The notes under the pieces are model-generated. The model saw only the letters and a program-made list of their open reading frames with translations. It was not told where the DNA came from and ran no database searches. Of a stretch of DNA of 36,016 nucleotides, positions 20,931 through 29,352 are shown in pieces. The first letter of the stretch is position 1. Every line of letters begins with the position of its first letter. The position numbers were made by a program, and so were the translations under genes. This stretch comes from Chelativorans alearensis (GTDB lineage: Bacteria; Pseudomonadota; Alphaproteobacteria; Rhizobiales; Rhizobiaceae). The stretch spans positions 1 to 36,016 of the forward strand of contig NZ_WQNI01000026.1 of the NCBI RefSeq assembly GCF_010993735.1. Reading direction: 5' to 3'.

Positions 20931-22427
20931 TCATGCGGTTTCCGAACGCAGGCCGCCCGACCGAGCGAGGGAAAACAGCGCATCGCAGTCGAGATGGGTT
21001 TCCAGGTGATCGGCGATCGCGTCGAGCGCGGCCTCCACCCCGGCGCGGTAGTCCGTGCCGCCGCCGACGACCCCGAACGCCTCGAGGAAGCGGGCGCGAA
21101 AGGCGTCGGAACCGAAGAGCCCATGCAGATAGGTGCCGTAGACCTTGCCGTCGGGAGAGGTTGCGCCGTCGGCGCGGCCGTCGATCTCGGCCACCGGGCG
21201 CAGGCAATCGGCGCCTTCAGTGCGGCCGAGATGGATTTCGTAGCCGGTGAGCGGCACGTCGTGGTGGAGTGAGCGGGCGTGCACGTTGCGCACGGACTTC
21301 TCCGGCTCCATGACGGTTTCCACGTCGAGATGGCCGAGGCCCTCGACCGCTCCCGCGCCGCCCTCCAGCCCGTGCGGATCGCTCACCCGCCGGCCCAGCA
21401 TCTGGTAGCCGCCGCACAGGCCGACAATGCGGCCGCCGCGCCGCCGGTGGGCGGCAAGATCGCTGTCCCAGCCGTTTTGCCGGAATGCGGCAAGGTCTGC
21501 GATCGTCGATTTGGAGCCGGGGATGACGACGAGCCCGGCATCGGCCGGCAGCCGGCTTCCCGGCGGCACGAACACCACCTCCACCTGCGGCTCGGCGCGC
21601 AGCGGGTCGAGATCGTCGAAATTGGCGATGCGCGGCAGCATGGGCACGGCCACCTTGAGCGGCTTCGCACTGCCGCCGGCAAGCCGCTCCAGCACCACCG
21701 AATCCTCCGACGGCAGCCTCGCCGCCTCGGAAAGCCACGGCACCGTGCCGAAGGAGCGCCAGCCGGTGAAGCGGTCGATCGCCGCGATGCCCTCGTCGAA
21801 GAGCGAGACGTCGCCGCGAAACTTGTTGATGATGTAGCCGGCCACCATGCGCCGGTCCTCTTCCGCCAGGATGAGATGCGTGCCGGCTATGGCGGCGATC
21901 ACGCCGCCGCGGTCGATGTCTCCGACCAGCACCACCGGCACGTTCGCCCTTCTCGCAAAGCCCATATTGGCGATGTCGCGGTCGCGCAGGTTGATCTCGG
22001 CCGGCGAGCCGGCACCCTCGACGATGACGAGATCGGCGCCCTCGCCCACATACGCCCAGGAGTCCATGACCGCATCCATCAGCCGGCCCTTGAGCGCCTG
22101 GTAGTCGCGCGCGGCCGCCCTGCCGGCCACCCTGCCCTGCACGACGATTTGCGAGCCGATGTCGCTCTGCGGCTTCAGGAGCACCGGGTTCATGTGCACG
22201 GTCGGCGGCACACCGCAGGCGAGAGCCTGCAGCCATTGCGCACGGCCGATCTCGCCCTCGCCCGCCTCGCCGGGAATGGCCGCGACGGCGGCGTTGTTGG
22301 ACATGTTCTGCGGCTTGAAGGGGCGCACCTTCAGGCCGCGATTGCGCGCCGCCCGGCAGAGGCCGGCGACAAGCACCGTCTTGCCGACGTCGGAACCGGT
22401 ACCCTGCAGCATGATGGCGTGGGCCAT
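20931..22427 (-). CDS. cobQ: Adenosylcobyric acid synthase (glutamine-hydrolysing) CobQ
   Basis: Amidates side chains b, d, e and g of adenosylcobyrinate diamide in cobalamin synthesis. The 498-residue protein has an N-terminal dethiobiotin-synthetase-like ATPase domain with P-loop GTGSDVGKT (9-17) and [14 protein letters not shown], then [33 protein letters not shown] and the linker [13 protein letters not shown] class I glutamine amidotransferase domain follows with nucleophile Cys338 in [10 protein letters not shown] and a C-terminal GTYLHGLF His. GGGAGGAT sits just before the ATG at 22427. No other cob gene is visible beside it. Cobalamin supply would matter for the corrinoid-type methyltransferases downstream of 25,100. 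I see no cobalamin riboswitch in front of it. Confidence 0.95.
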
Positions 22428-22502
22428 GGGCCATCCTCCCGTTGCGCGCGCCCTCCAATGCACTAAACTTCACTGAAAGAAAAGAAAGGCCGGGAGGACA
22501 CG

Positions 22503-23845: not shown

Positions 23846-24760
23846 ATGACCACCATCGCATTCATCGGCCTTGGCAACATGGGCAACCCCATGGCCGCGA
23901 ACCTCGTCAAGGCCGGGCACAAGGTGCGCGGCTTCGACCTTGTGGCGGAGAACCTGGAGAAGGCCGCCGGGAACGGCGTCGACGTGGCGGCGAGTGCGGC
24001 GGAGACACTGGAAGGGGCGGAGGTCGCCATCACCATGCTGCCGGCCGGCAAGCATGTGCTGTCGGTCTATGAGGACATCGCGCCGAAGGCGGCGAAGGGC
24101 ATGCTGTTCATCGATTCTTCGACCATCGATGTCGAATCGGCGCGCAAGGCGCATGCCATCGCCGGCGAGCGCGGGCTCTTGTCCATCGATGCGCCGGTCT
24201 CCGGCGGTGTCGGCGGTGCGCAGGCGGGCACACTCACCTTCATGGCCGGCGGCGGCGAGGCTGCCTTCGCCAAGGCCGAGCCTATACTCCAGCCGATGGC
24301 CGGCCGCATCGTCCATTGCGGCGAGGCGGGCGCCGGACAGGCGGCGAAGATTTGCAACAACATGATCCTCGGCATTTCGATGATCGGCGTCGGCGAGGCC
24401 TTCGTGCTGGCGGAGAAGCTGGGCCTGTCGCACCAGGCGCTGTTCGACGTCGCCTCCACCGCTTCCGGCCAATGCTGGTCGCTCACTTCCTACTGCCCGG
24501 TGCCCGGCCCCGTGCCGGCCTCGCCCGCCAACCGCGACTACCAGCCGGGCTTTGCGGCAAGCCTGATGCTGAAGGACCTGCGCCTTGCCCAGGAAGCCGC
24601 CCAAGCCTCGGGCGCGGCGACGCCGCTGGGCGCGGAGGCGGCACAGCTTTATGCCCTGTTCGAGGCCATGGGCAACGGCGGCAAGGATTTTTCCGGCATC
24701 ATAAACTTCCTGCGCGGAAACCGGGATGAGCGGAAACCGCGTCAAAAAATGCCACGTTAA
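23846..24760 (+). CDS. mmsB: 3-hydroxyisobutyrate dehydrogenase
   Basis: Oxidises 3-hydroxyisobutyrate to methylmalonate semialdehyde with NAD in valine degradation. It is a 304-residue beta-hydroxyacid dehydrogenase: Rossmann motif FIGLGNMGNPMAANL (6-20), substrate-binding DAPVSGGVGGAQAGTLTFMAGG (115-136), catalytic Lys168 in GQAAKICNNM, and C-terminal GKDFSGIINFLR. A basic tail of about 13 residues (GNRDERKPRQKMPR) extends past the usual family end. GCGGAGGAG precedes the start. It is paired with the acyl-CoA dehydrogenase upstream, separated by the heptad-array element. Confidence 0.92.
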   Translation: MTTIAFIGLGNMGNPMAANLVKAGHKVRGFDLVAENLEKAAGNGVDVAASAAETLEGAEVAITMLPAGKHVLSVYEDIAPKAAKGMLFIDSSTIDVESARKAHAIAGERGLLSIDAPVSGGVGGAQAGTLTFMAGGGEAAFAKAEPILQPMAGRIVHCGEAGAGQAAKICNNMILGISMIGVGEAFVLAEKLGLSHQALFDVASTASGQCWSLTSYCPVPGPVPASPANRDYQPGFAASLMLKDLRLAQEAAQASGAATPLGAEAAQLYALFEAMGNGGKDFSGIINFLRGNRDERKPRQKMPR

Positions 24761-24815
24761 GGATTGCGCAAGCACTTGCTAACCTCCCGGTAACGATGTC
24801 GGTCTAGAACAAAGG

Positions 24816-24922
24816 AAGGCGGACATCACAGGCACCGCCCCGGCTCCGGAAAGGGTCTCGCGTACCGGAGCGGACCGCCTTCGCAAGCGTAACTGTACCC
24901 GTGAGGGCGCCTGTCGAGTTAC
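24816..24922 (+). ncRNA. Candidate structured RNA (riboswitch-like leader or sRNA), family not recognised
   Basis: The 343-bp gap 24761-25103 holds a densely self-complementary segment. Helices seen: AAGGCGG 24816-24822 with CCGCCTT 24875-24881; GCTCCGG 24843-24849 with CCGGAGC 24865-24871; GTAACT 24889-24894 with AGTTAC 24917-24922, enclosing a CCC-GTGA-GGG hairpin at 24898-24907. ACAGGC 24828-24833 can pair with GCCTGT 24909-24914, linking the two domains as a pseudoknot. GGCGG 24818-24822 has a second possible partner, CCGCC 24835-24839, giving mutually exclusive folds. An intrinsic terminator follows within 3 nt. Together this suggests a ligand-sensing attenuator of the mttB-dehydrogenase genes downstream, or a free sRNA. 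I could not match it to cobalamin, glycine, SAM-II, SAH, tmRNA, SRP or 6S consensus features. Confidence 0.5.
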
Positions 24923-24924
24923 AT

Positions 24925-24961
24925 AAAACCGCGTTTCTCCAGTCGGAGGGCGCGGTTTTTT
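24925..24961 (+). terminator. Strong Rho-independent terminator after the candidate RNA
   Basis: AAAACCGCG (24925-24933) pairs with CGCGGTTTT (24951-24959), with an inner CTCC-AGTC-GGAG stem, and ends in a run of six T. It lies 142 bp upstream of the mttB start, so transcripts from upstream (mmsB or a local promoter) would stop here unless antiterminated. The A-run on the left side makes it potentially bidirectional. Confidence 0.85.
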
Positions 24962-25103
24962 GCTGTTCGCGGCAGTGCCCACGTCTTGTCGGAATACGTC
25001 ATTCAGATGTCGCTTCTCTTGCGCTTTCGGTCGCCGTTTCGTTGTCGGTGCTCCATGCGAGGCGTCATGATGCCGGCCAGCGCAACGCACAGCGAGGCAT
25101 CCC
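24962..25103 (+). other. Gene-free leader between terminator and first mttB-like gene
   Basis: These 142 bp hold no gene that I can support. They end in GCGAGGC, the ribosome-binding site of the methyltransferase gene. I see no clear promoter pair, so the downstream genes may depend on read-through of the terminator or on a promoter I cannot recognise. Confidence 0.4.
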
Positions 25104-26681
25104 ATGACCATCCCGGACACAGCCGCCGAGGCACACCCGGAGGGCGGCCGCACGCGGCGTGGCGGCCGTGCGGCAAAGCGGGACAGCATGGCCGACGCCT
25201 TCGACCAGCCTCCCTTCCGCCAGCTGACCGTTCCCTTCCCGCCGACGGGTCTCCTGTCCGAGGACGAGCTGGAATCGATCCACCTCGCCTCGCTTAAGGT
25301 GTTGAAGGAAATCGGCATCGAGGTGCTGCACGACGAGGCGCGCGCCATCATGCGCCGCCATGGCGCCGATGTGCGCGAGGATACGCACCGGGTGCATTTC
25401 GACAGCGACATGGTGCTGGAGTTCATCGCCCATTGCCCGTCCGAGTTTACCGTCCATGCGCGCAATCCGGCGCACGACCTGCGCATGGGCGGCAACAACA
25501 TCATATTCGCGCAGATCGGCTCCGCGCCCAACTGCTCCGACACGGATAGCGGGCGGCGGCCGGGGAACCAGGCCGACTTCCGCAATTTCGTGAAGCTCGC
25601 CCAGATGCACAACATCGTCCACTGCCTGGGCGGCTACCCGGTGGAGCCGATCGACATCCACGCCGGCATCAGGCATCTGGAATGCCTGCGCGACATCACC
25701 ACGCTGACCGACAAGACCTTTCACATCTATTCGCTGGGCAGGGAGCGCAACCAGGACGGCATCGAGATCGCCCGCATCGCCCGCGGCGTGAGTGCCGAGC
25801 AGCTTCGCGACGAGCCCTCCTGCTTCACCGTCATCAACACCAACTCGCCGCTGAAGCTCGACATCCCGATGCTGGAGGGCGTCATCCAGATGGCGACCCA
25901 CGGCCAGGTGGTCATCGTCACGCCATTCACGCTGGCGGGCGCCATGGCGCCCATCACCGTCGCCGGGGCCCTGGTGCAACAGAACGCCGAGGCGCTCGCC
26001 GCCCTCGCCTTTTCGCAGATGGTGAGGAAGGGCGCGCCCGTCGGCTATGGCGGCTTCACCTCCAATGTCGACATGCGCTCCGGCGCGCCTGCCTTCGGCA
26101 CGCCCGAATCCATGAAAGCGCAGCTTATCGGCGGCCAGCTCGCCCGCCGTTACGGCATCCCCTACCGCAGCTCCAATGTCTGCGCGGCCAATACGGTCGA
26201 CGCGCAGGCGGCCTACGAGAGCGTCTTTTCGCTGTGGGGCTGCATCCACGGCGGTGCCAACCTCGTCAAGCACGCGGCCGGCTGGCTAGAGGGCGGGCTG
26301 TGCTGCTCCTACGAAAAAATGATGCTCGACTTCGACCTCCTGCAGATGGTGGCGGAGTTCCTCACCCCGCTCGACCTGTCGGAGGATGCGCTTGGCGTGG
26401 AGGCCATCCGCGAGGTAGGCCCGGGCGGCCATTTCTTCGGCTCCCCACACACCCAGGCGCGCTACAAGACCGCCTTCTACTCACCGATCATCTCCGACTG
26501 GCGCAACTACGAGACCTGGGCGCAGGCCGGTAGCCCGACGGCCATCGAGCATGCCAACCGGCTGTGGAAGGAGCGGCTGGCCACCTACGAGGCGCCACCG
26601 ATGGACGAGGCGATCCGCGAGGAGCTGGACGCGTTCGTGGAGCGACGAATCCGCGAGGGCGGGGCGCCGACGGATTTTTAG
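25104..26681 (+). CDS. MttB-superfamily (COG5598) methyltransferase, non-pyrrolysine
   Basis: A 525-residue TIM-barrel protein of the trimethylamine methyltransferase superfamily. The frame is open throughout with no amber codon, so it is not a pyrrolysine enzyme and belongs with the MtgB-like branch, whose characterised members demethylate glycine betaine, proline betaine or carnitine onto a corrinoid protein. Shared landmarks with the second copy at 34493 are an N-terminal LASLKVLKEIGIEVLHDEA, VHARNPAHDLRMGG, TPFTLAGAMAPITVAG, RSGAPAFGTPES, HAAGWLEGGL-SYEKMMLDFDLLQM, AIREVGPGGHFFGSPHTQA and a C-terminal YEAPPMDEAIREELDAFVERR. A basic N-terminal tail (RTRRGGRAAKRD) resembles the N-terminus of the second copy. 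It is followed 70 bp later by an FAD-GcvT demethylating dehydrogenase. The substrate is not determined, and no corrinoid protein is encoded beside it. Confidence 0.85.
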   Translation: MTIPDTAAEAHPEGGRTRRGGRAAKRDSMADAFDQPPFRQLTVPFPPTGLLSEDELESIHLASLKVLKEIGIEVLHDEARAIMRRHGADVREDTHRVHFDSDMVLEFIAHCPSEFTVHARNPAHDLRMGGNNIIFAQIGSAPNCSDTDSGRRPGNQADFRNFVKLAQMHNIVHCLGGYPVEPIDIHAGIRHLECLRDITTLTDKTFHIYSLGRERNQDGIEIARIARGVSAEQLRDEPSCFTVINTNSPLKLDIPMLEGVIQMATHGQVVIVTPFTLAGAMAPITVAGALVQQNAEALAALAFSQMVRKGAPVGYGGFTSNVDMRSGAPAFGTPESMKAQLIGGQLARRYGIPYRSSNVCAANTVDAQAAYESVFSLWGCIHGGANLVKHAAGWLEGGLCCSYEKMMLDFDLLQMVAEFLTPLDLSEDALGVEAIREVGPGGHFFGSPHTQARYKTAFYSPIISDWRNYETWAQAGSPTAIEHANRLWKERLATYEAPPMDEAIREELDAFVERRIREGGAPTDF

Positions 26682-26751
26682 TGGAACCCATGGAAAGCGA
26701 AGCGCCCCTTCAAGCTCTTGAATCACTTCCCGCATATACGGAAATAACCCC

Positions 26752-29352
26752 ATGAAATCCCATGCAAAAGCAGTTGTCATCGGCGGCGGCGTGGTGGGCT
26801 GCTCGGTGCTTTACCACCTCGCCCGCGCCGGCTGGGCGGATGTGCTTCTGATCGAGCGCTCGGAGCTGACATCCGGCTCGTCCTGGCATGCGGCCGGCGG
26901 CTTCCATACGTTGAACGGCGATCCGAACGTGGCGAAGCTGCAGGCTTACACCGTACAGCTCTATCGCGAGATCGAGGAACTCTCCGGCCAGTCCTGCGGG
27001 CTGCACCTGACGGGCGGCGTGATGATGGCCGATAGCCCGGAGCGCATGGATTTCCTGCGCCTGGCACACGCCAAGGGGCGGTATCTGGGCATGGAGACGG
27101 AGCTGATCACCCCGTCGGAAGCCAAGGCCATGTTCCCGCTCATGGACGAGACCAACTTCGTCGGCGCCATGTGGGACCCGGTGGAGGGCCATCTCGACCC
27201 CTCCGGCACCACCCACGCCTATGCGCGCGCAGCGCGCAAGCTGGGGGCGGAGATCGAATTGAGGAACCGGGTGGTGGAGCTGACGCAGGAGGCTGACGGC
27301 ACCTGGAACGTGGTCACCGAGAAAGGCACGGTGAAGGCCGAGCACGTGGTCAATTGCGGGGGCTTATGGGCGCGCGAGGTGGGGCGCATGGTCGGGCTGG
27401 AACTGCCGCTGCTCGCCATGGAGCACATGTATCTGTTGACCGAGCCGATGCCGGAGGTTGAAGAATTCAACCGCGCCACGGGGCGCGAGATGGTCGGCGT
27501 CATCGACTTCAAGGGCGAGATCTACACGCGGCAGGAGCGGAACGGCATCCTGCTCGGCACCTATGAGAAGGCCGCCAAGCCCTGGTCGGAACATGAGACG
27601 CCGTGGGACTTCGGCCACGAGCTTTTACAGCCGGACATCGACCGCATCTCTCCCTCGCTGGAGGTCGGCTTCCGCCATTTCCCGGCGCTTGAGAACGCCG
27701 GCATCAAGCAGGTTATCAACGGCCCCTTCACCTTTGCGCCGGACGGCAACCCGCTGGTTGGGCCGGTGCAGGGACTGACGAATTTCTGGTGTGCCTGCGC
27801 CGTCATGGCCGGCTTCTCCCAAGGCGGCGGCGTGGGGCTGGCGCTTTCCAACTGGATGGTGAACGGCGATCCGGGCTTCGACGTCTGGGGCATGGATGTC
27901 GCCCGTTTCGGCGAGTGGGCAACGCTGCGCTACACCAACGCCAAGGTGCGCGAGAACTATTCGCGGCGCTTCTCCATCCGCTTCCCCAACGAGGAGCTGC
28001 CGGCCGCGCGGCCGGCACAGACGACGCCGCTCTACGACGTGATGGTGCGCGACAACAACGCCGTGATGGGCGATTCGTGGGGCCTGGAGACGCCGCTCTG
28101 GTTCGCGCCGAAAGGCACGGAGCCGAAGGATATCGTCTCCTTCCACCGCTCCAACGATTTCGAGCATGTGGGGGGCGAGGTGCGCGCGGTGAGGAACGGC
28201 GTCGGCGTCACCGAGATCGCCAATTTCGCCAAATACGCGGTCTCGGGGCCGGGTGCGGCCGCCTTCCTCGACCGGCTGATGACCAACCGCATGCCGAAGA
28301 CGGGCCGCATCGTACTGTCGCCGATGCTCAACGAGTTCGGCAAGCTGATCGGCGATTTCACCATCGCGCGGGCCGGCGAGGAGCGCTTCATGGTGTGGGG
28401 CTCGTCGGCCGCGCAGGTCTACCACATGCGCTGGTTCGAGAAGCACCTGCCGAAGGATGGCCCAAGGGACAGCGAAGTGAGGATCCACCGCTTCGACCAG
28501 ACGCTGGTGGGGCTGTCCATCGCCGGGCCGAAATCGCGGGAGGTGCTGGAAAAGCTTGTCGACACGGATGTCTCGAGGGGCGCCTTCCGTTTCATGGACT
28601 TCCGCGAGATGGCGGTGGCCGGCGCGCCCTCTATGGTCAATCGCCTCACCTATACCGGCGACCTCGGCTACGAGATATGGATGCCGCCAGCCTACCAGCG
28701 GCGTGTTTATGAAGGCATCAAAGAGGCAGGCGCCGAGTTCGGCATTGTAGATTTCGGCATGCGGGCGCTTCTGTCCATGCGGCTTGAGAAGAATTTCCCC
28801 ACCTGGTTCCGCGAGCTACGCCCCATCTATGGGCCCTTCGAAGGGGCGATGGAGCGCTTCGTCAAGCTGGAGAAGAACGATTTCATCGGCTACGAGGCGG
28901 CGGCAAGGGAGAAGGCAAAGGGGCCGAGGCTGCGCCGTGTCTCCTTCATCGTCGAGGCGCTGGATGCCGACGTGATGGGTGATGAGCCGATCTGGGCGAA
29001 GGTGGGCAAGAAGGATTTTGGCACTGTGGAGAAGCCGCACGGCTTCGGAGCGCCGCGCTTTACGGCCGGCGGCGCGGCCGTGCAAAGAAGCGAGGGTGGC
29101 GGCGCGAGCCGCGAGGACCCGGCGCACATCCGCGGCATCGCAGACGGCGAATGGCGCGTCGTCGGGTGGGTGACGTCCGGCGGCTATGCGCACTTCGTGG
29201 AAAAATCCATGGCTCAGGGCTATCTGCCGGCGGAACTGGCGGAAGACGAGAGCGAGGGCCTGTTCGAGATCGAGATCCTCGGCCAGCGCCGCCCGGCCCG
29301 CATCAATCTTCTGCCGCCGTTCGATCCGGAAGGGGAGCGGATGCGGGGGTAG
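26752..29352 (+). CDS. Dimethylglycine/sarcosine dehydrogenase-like FAD-GcvT fusion enzyme
   Basis: An 866-residue two-part enzyme. The N-terminal DAO-type FAD domain has VVIGGGVVGCSVLYHLARAG (8-27) and SGSSWHAAGG, with His46 at the position of the covalent flavin histidine of dimethylglycine and sarcosine dehydrogenases. The C-terminal half is a GcvT-like tetrahydrofolate domain (MVNRLTYTGDLGYEIWMP, FGMRALLSMRLEKNFPTWFREL, VVGWVTSGGYAHFVEKSMAQGY). Such enzymes oxidatively demethylate N-methyl amines and pass the one-carbon unit to folate. Residues around 750-800 contain an insertion of about 50 residues (28996-29154) rich in Gly, Ala and Arg that I do not expect in the family. With the MttB-like gene before it, it would carry out sequential demethylation of a betaine. 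Exact substrate unknown. Confidence 0.88.
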   Translation: MKSHAKAVVIGGGVVGCSVLYHLARAGWADVLLIERSELTSGSSWHAAGGFHTLNGDPNVAKLQAYTVQLYREIEELSGQSCGLHLTGGVMMADSPERMDFLRLAHAKGRYLGMETELITPSEAKAMFPLMDETNFVGAMWDPVEGHLDPSGTTHAYARAARKLGAEIELRNRVVELTQEADGTWNVVTEKGTVKAEHVVNCGGLWAREVGRMVGLELPLLAMEHMYLLTEPMPEVEEFNRATGREMVGVIDFKGEIYTRQERNGILLGTYEKAAKPWSEHETPWDFGHELLQPDIDRISPSLEVGFRHFPALENAGIKQVINGPFTFAPDGNPLVGPVQGLTNFWCACAVMAGFSQGGGVGLALSNWMVNGDPGFDVWGMDVARFGEWATLRYTNAKVRENYSRRFSIRFPNEELPAARPAQTTPLYDVMVRDNNAVMGDSWGLETPLWFAPKGTEPKDIVSFHRSNDFEHVGGEVRAVRNGVGVTEIANFAKYAVSGPGAAAFLDRLMTNRMPKTGRIVLSPMLNEFGKLIGDFTIARAGEERFMVWGSSAAQVYHMRWFEKHLPKDGPRDSEVRIHRFDQTLVGLSIAGPKSREVLEKLVDTDVSRGAFRFMDFREMAVAGAPSMVNRLTYTGDLGYEIWMPPAYQRRVYEGIKEAGAEFGIVDFGMRALLSMRLEKNFPTWFRELRPIYGPFEGAMERFVKLEKNDFIGYEAAAREKAKGPRLRRVSFIVEALDADVMGDEPIWAKVGKKDFGTVEKPHGFGAPRFTAGGAAVQRSEGGGASREDPAHIRGIADGEWRVVGWVTSGGYAHFVEKSMAQGYLPAELAEDESEGLFEIEILGQRRPARINLLPPFDPEGERMRG

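Follow-up and report, generated by a model that had tools for sequence, protein, structure and literature searches.

Trans-encoded small RNAs of the Rhizobiales have been grouped into families, and the part of one survey that was available to us (PMC3927594) gives SmelC023 and SmelC289 as examples. GspR (SmelC775) of Sinorhizobium, according to the available portion of PMC5928217, is an RNA of about 143 nt with stem-loops that regulates ctrA. MH_s16, an unassigned candidate from Mesorhizobium huakuii 7653R, appears in the accessible sections of PMC5596092. The binding consensus of CtrA itself in S. meliloti, as quoted in the part of PMC3616915 at hand, is TAA-N7-TTAAC. The locus described here lies in a window of 36,016 nucleotides from Chelativorans alearensis (contig NZ_WQNI01000026.1), where a first-pass annotation had proposed a structured RNA at 24816–24961.

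The covariance model R2, built with five helices from this sequence and 29 relatives, matches 24816–24961 on the plus strand from its first to its last position (model positions 1–141 of 141, 89.9 bits). The interval given in the annotation is thus correct, and it delimits a predicted non-coding RNA of about 146 nt, the 5′ end being putative. Helix H1 (GGCGG/CCGCC) spans 24818–24839 with its loop and pairs 24818–24822 with 24835–24839. H2, at 24843–24871, pairs 24843–24849 with 24865–24871 and closes a 15-nt loop that is nearly fixed, as seen from the invariant columns of alignment A1, described below. H3 (24876–24909; pairs 24876–24884/24901–24909) is followed by the region that forms helix H4 in relatives (24909–24925) and by the intrinsic terminator (24926–24961), all on the plus strand. 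H4 is poorly formed at this locus; the region can pair here with the loop of H1. A weak antisense match of R2 at 24923–25080 on the minus strand (E 0.0017) is the terminator palindrome read in reverse.

By folding energy, the terminator alone is clearly beyond chance. Folded by itself (24926–24962), it has a z-score of −4.78, and none of 200 shuffled sequences is as stable, which bears out the earlier description of a strong intrinsic terminator. H1, H2, and H3, each taken alone, give z-scores of −1.6 to −1.75, and the stretch 24816–24975 folds at −69.4 kcal/mol (z −1.9), with 8 of 200 shuffles equally stable.

Comparison with relatives supports the fold, mainly in H3 and the terminator. A BLASTN query of 24800–24970 against 199 genomes of the same family yielded 29 further loci, and the window together with these best BLAST loci makes up the 30 rows of A1. 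Standard pairs are formed in 89.4% of the cells, compared with 40–50% when the partners are slid, a percentage favored by the setting of the five-helix structure by hand from the same alignment; RNAalifold applied to the relatives returns H2 and the terminator only. Changes on both sides occur in 17 pairs, as against 7.5 in shuffles, and none of 500 shuffles reaches as many. They fall on all seven modelled pairs of H3, on 6 of 10 in the terminator, 2 of 7 in H2, 2 of 4 in H4, and none of 5 in H1. A wider alignment, A2, was made from 139 usable sequences thinned to 57; loci in which a terminator was not recognized, those of Ensifer, Aureimonas, and Devosia among them, were dropped. In this wider set H1 is made up of quite different complementary stems, as judged by a script that picks the best stem in each sequence and so carries a favorable bias. 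The upstream block described below, the hairpin with the nearly fixed loop, and the terminator are common to the aligned relatives, and H2 with its loop is likely the functional center of the molecule. The end-to-end match and the covariation uphold the proposed structured RNA, and the conservation and covariation in relatives that had been put forward as a check were both found.

Two further pairings in the earlier description fared less well. The long-range pairing of 24828–24833 with 24909–24914 (ACAGGC/GCCTGT) is present in the window as six pairs, as written, and at the same place many relatives can join the loop of H1 to the H4 region through CGCA/TGCG. Its comparative support is modest, since many other relatives lack such a pairing: 64.5% of cells are paired, against 24–45% with slid partners, and 20 of 500 shuffles score as high. 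The summed score of 555 exceeds that for shuffled loops (502 ± 13; none of 200 loop shuffles as high), although this count also picks the best stem and is biased in its favor. The competing partner for GGCGG likewise exists in the window, where AAGGCGG can pair with CCGCCTT at 24875–24881, but it is not conserved. Among relatives 68.0% of cells are paired, compared with 67.8% in shuffles, and no pair shows changes on both sides.

The full RNA is essentially confined to one family. At E ≤ 0.01, R2 matches 174 of the 199 genomes sampled from it, and 99 of 109 genera; BLASTN at E ≤ 1 gives some match in 163 of the 199, many of them short and by chance. Named records of Mesorhizobium, Aminobacter, Chelativorans, Phyllobacterium, Falsochrobactrum, Ensifer, Sinorhizobium, Rhizobium, Hoeflea, and Aureimonas suggest that the sampled family is the Rhizobiaceae in the wide GTDB sense. 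An earlier model, R1, matched 27 of 397 genomes in an order-wide sample. Of the 21 family members in that sample 20 matched, and of the 376 genomes outside the family 7 did. The seven outside matches are weak, with E values of 1.3e-4 or worse, and proved on inspection to be terminators standing alone or stretches of coding sequence; the ccrM case discussed below is among them. A sample of 289 genomes from the whole class gave three matches, one of them in the genome of the window. The H2 pattern CGGNTCAGGTNNYGCGTNCCG occurs in 23 of the 397 order genomes, 7 of these outside the family, while the reversed control gives none. Five of the seven outside matches lie within long open frames; another, L216, is just 3′ of a gene that ends like ribosomal protein S9 and has a terminator after it, and L235 is intergenic.

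Several loci depart from the common arrangement. Three Aureimonas loci (L080, L126, and L173) keep the H2 loop, but H2 seems to sit inside a longer outer stem there, and what is left of the upstream block is GTTA...GGTAAG. A Devosia metagenome-assembled genome (L153, 2530–2600) has H2 followed directly by a terminator-like hairpin, and the usual upstream block is absent. One genome, G116, carries two strong copies of the RNA, at C5:1437–1573 and C7:74664–74800 (E 4.6e-16 and 1.1e-14).

Alignment of relatives reveals a conserved block of about 55 bp (24755–24812, plus strand) immediately upstream of the RNA, which is probably its promoter. The block contains TAA repeats every 11 bp, with a core at 24780–24794, and a −10-like box at 24805–24810. 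In a count over 191 loci that required no GTAA anchor, GTAA[CG] is present in 189 and TAA-N8-TAA in 186; from a total of 199 loci, five that lack the H2 pattern and three that are too short were left out, and several loci come from the same genome. A set of 73 thinned sequences, for which a GTAA anchor was required, has the consensus aAAAa....caaaTTtAg.tTTGcTTAAGctCTcGaTAACC...CGGTAACgATGTccc..TA.AA. The core has a single match in the whole genome at three or fewer mismatches. A sigma-70 scan returned no promoter-like site, a result compatible with a promoter that depends on an activator. Sites of OmpR-type regulators are typically built from 11-bp direct repeats. The spacing agrees with that of CtrA sites in S. 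meliloti, but the block has G where the TTAAC of the CtrA consensus has T; CtrA is a possible regulator. The block stays with the RNA both where mmsB and where cobQ is the neighbor, and this persistence beside changing genes suggests that the RNA has a promoter of its own, independent of its neighbors.

Gene order was surveyed in 120 named loci, gathered by the H2 pattern from among the matches listed; they extend to 8 kb at most, form neither a complete nor a random sample, and are uninformative on variation in H2. In the window, an mmsB-like 3-hydroxyisobutyrate dehydrogenase gene (23846–24760, plus strand; PF03446, PF14833) precedes the RNA. The same gene is directly upstream in 86 of the 120 matches listed and adjoins the RNA in 27 of the 29 best BLAST loci. 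The cobQ gene for cobyric acid synthase lies at 20931–22463 on the minus strand (PF07685, PF01656), and among the 120 matches listed, it adjoins the RNA in either orientation in 18 of the 34 loci that are not of the mmsB type. The Ensifer and Sinorhizobium loci L079, L105, and L112 adjoin cobQ. Neither gene is seen in 16 of the 120 matches listed, nine of which have less than 600 nt of upstream sequence. Of the 86 mmsB-type loci among the matches listed, 44 contain cobQ as well.

Downstream in the window, the MttB-like gene (25104–26681, plus strand; PF06253) begins with an ATG at 25104, so its reported position just beyond the RNA is correct, but it is an incidental neighbor. The interval 25104–29352 holds this gene and then a fused FAD oxidoreductase/GcvT-like gene (PF06253; PF01266 with PF01571). 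Among the 120 matches listed, mttB is downstream in the same direction in 20, at 275 to 6708 nt; it is closer than 1 kb in two, at 275 nt (L184) and 723 nt, and at 2.4–6.7 kb in the rest. It is absent from the loci, of about 3 kb, of all 29 best relatives, two genomes of the same genus included, and these two have no mttB within about 1.4 kb downstream. The lasting neighbors among the matches listed are mmsB or cobQ.

The alternatives that tie the RNA to an adjacent gene can be weighed against this record. The first-pass annotation had seen an attenuation-type riboswitch in the leader of mttB/GcvT. The terminator, the position in the window, and the one other locus with mttB at 275 nt speak for that reading; it was rejected because mttB is absent or far away in other loci and the alternative helix is not conserved, and we consider it very improbable. 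Failure to assign the element to a known class was borne out: the Rfam search found no family at the gathering score anywhere in the window, the lowest E in 24600–25200 being 4.3, and the window scan returned no riboswitch near 25104–29352. The four Rfam matches in 16 loci from diverse family members are cobalamin riboswitches that lie elsewhere in those loci; the RNA itself has none. Hardly more probable is a 3′ UTR of mmsB, either a processed fragment or a plain operon terminator. The mmsB gene is on the same strand as the RNA and stops at 24760, and the recurrence of this order in 86 of the 120 matches listed would favor it. The upstream block, however, sits between mmsB and the RNA and stays with the RNA also at loci where the adjoining gene is not mmsB; a 3′ part of mmsB was rejected on this ground. 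Least probable of all, to the point of being scarcely credible, is a short protein-coding gene or leader peptide: an open reading frame of at least 12 codons is present in 12 of 57 sequences, but the relatives have no frame in common, and insertions and deletions do not come in threes, as the even spread of the H2–terminator distance modulo 3 illustrates (20, 19, and 18 among 57 sequences). A small open reading frame was rejected on these grounds.

The interpretation that we favor is that 24816–24961 is probably a gene in its own right, encoding a regulatory non-coding RNA of about 146 nt that putatively acts in trans through the H2 loop and is transcribed from a putative response-regulator promoter. 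It is preferred because the RNA, its fold, the upstream block, and the terminator are inherited together across the family while the neighboring genes change. An OmpR-type response regulator might bind the TAA repeats, spaced at 11 bp in CtrA-like fashion, and so drive a promoter that has no recognizable −35 box. Transcription would start near 24813–24816 and end at the terminator. Target mRNAs would pair with the fixed loop of H2 (AGGU...GCGU), and the remaining parts, H1, H3, and the terminator, would serve as a scaffold. A search of 199 genomes for exact 14-nt complements of the consensus loop gave 41 sites, spread over 40 of the genomes, and the reversed control pattern gave 2; 36 of the 41 are the RNA itself. 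The other five are in G016, G119, G062, G050, and G142, and those of G016 and G119, which belong to one genus, fall in the same coding region. No target identified by exact 14-nt complementarity is common across genera in the 199 genomes. This result counts against the favored interpretation, as do the sigma-70 scan and the lack of both-sided changes in H1 of A1.

The main rival, itself rather unlikely, retains a free-standing RNA but has the H2 hairpin bind a protein, as a sponge, scaffold, or enzyme regulator, in place of pairing with mRNA. The lack of an exact target shared among the 199 genomes favors it, as does the near fixity of the loop in A1, whose rows, being the best BLAST loci, are biased by selection. 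The fixity of H2 exceeds what a pairing seed would need and would suit a protein partner as well. Against this proposal, three positions in the center of the loop vary, as may happen in a loop that pairs, and no protein is known to bind it. A bolder proposal, which we consider doubtful and slightly less probable again, makes the RNA a core regulator of the whole family. The fixed 29-nt H2 hairpin would then exist specifically to be recognized, either by one protein or by a core set of mRNAs, and the promoter, its four TAA half-sites lying on the same side of the DNA helix, would be dedicated to a response regulator. Were this so, an envelope or cell-cycle signal would be converted to an RNA signal in symbionts and in free-living and host-associated members alike.

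A possible link to the cell cycle was met in another family. The family to which G278 belongs, Beijerinckiaceae-like by protein names, was represented by 149 genomes; a looser H2 pattern gave four matches in them, and its control none. All four (L273, L274, L275, and L276, each at 1501–1519; locus L061 is one of them) lie in one frame of ccrM at a distance of 41 nt from the ATG, with a hairpin possible. A QV[LS]RT-like peptide is found at the N-termini of 68 of the best 120 CcrM proteins listed, and the DNA pattern is not kept in most of the 149 genomes. The four matches are homologous and amount to one coincidence; because the peptide is common and the DNA pattern mostly is not retained, the peptide motif probably explains them. 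They give a faint pointer toward the cell cycle, and a reason at the level of RNA is possible.

About nine-tenths of the genera sampled have the RNA, in a family whose members include nitrogen-fixing symbionts as well as other bacteria that live in association with plants and animals. Preservation of the hairpin and promoter block nearly letter for letter implies that the RNA probably does something central, and R2 offers a direct route to the transcript, its regulator, and its partners in tractable rhizobia. The case also teaches that genuine structure can pass for a riboswitch on the strength of one gene neighbor.

Judged from sequence, this is most likely an uncatalogued, family-wide small RNA gene that is missing from Rfam. 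The open-licence PMC main texts searched did not describe it by neighbor, loop letters, or regulator, and an unnamed entry in a supplementary table is possible. The available parts of PMC6234868, PMC2848018, PMC7143759, PMC7717549, and PMC4433202 likewise do not describe it. None of the terms looked for occurs in those of PMC2873474, PMC2573895, PMC2780559, and PMC9751625, and PMC2245857 has one in its reference list; the corresponding part of PMC2881028 turned up ReC64 alone.

Like the cis-regulatory riboswitch classes of Rfam, the RNA has a compact fold with a terminator; unlike them, it matches no Rfam family, its downstream gene changes from locus to locus, and its alternative helix is not conserved. 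It resembles the trans-encoded families, SmelC023 and SmelC289 among them, as presented in the accessible part of PMC3927594, in being intergenic, with several hairpins, a conserved loop, an intrinsic terminator, and microsynteny. Those two RNAs adjoin the genes for DNA polymerase I and prolyl-tRNA synthetase, and the loop motifs quoted there differ from the H2 loop. GspR is similar in length and stem-loops, but in the portion of PMC5928217 at hand it is flanked by SMc03844 and SMc03845 and reported from Sinorhizobium/Ensifer only. Locus and range would distinguish the two, since our RNA occurs in 99 of 109 genera and lies beside cobQ in Ensifer and Sinorhizobium. A possible counterpart by position is MH_s16, which, from the accessible sections of PMC5596092, is 88 kb from a cobalamin riboswitch, compared with 93 kb for the RNA in M. 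ciceri, and has flanking genes on the plus and minus strands as expected; its own strand is opposite to that expected, and it is 256 kb, as against 195 kb, from tmRNA. By these landmarks in M. ciceri, MH_s16 might be the same gene as the RNA described here.
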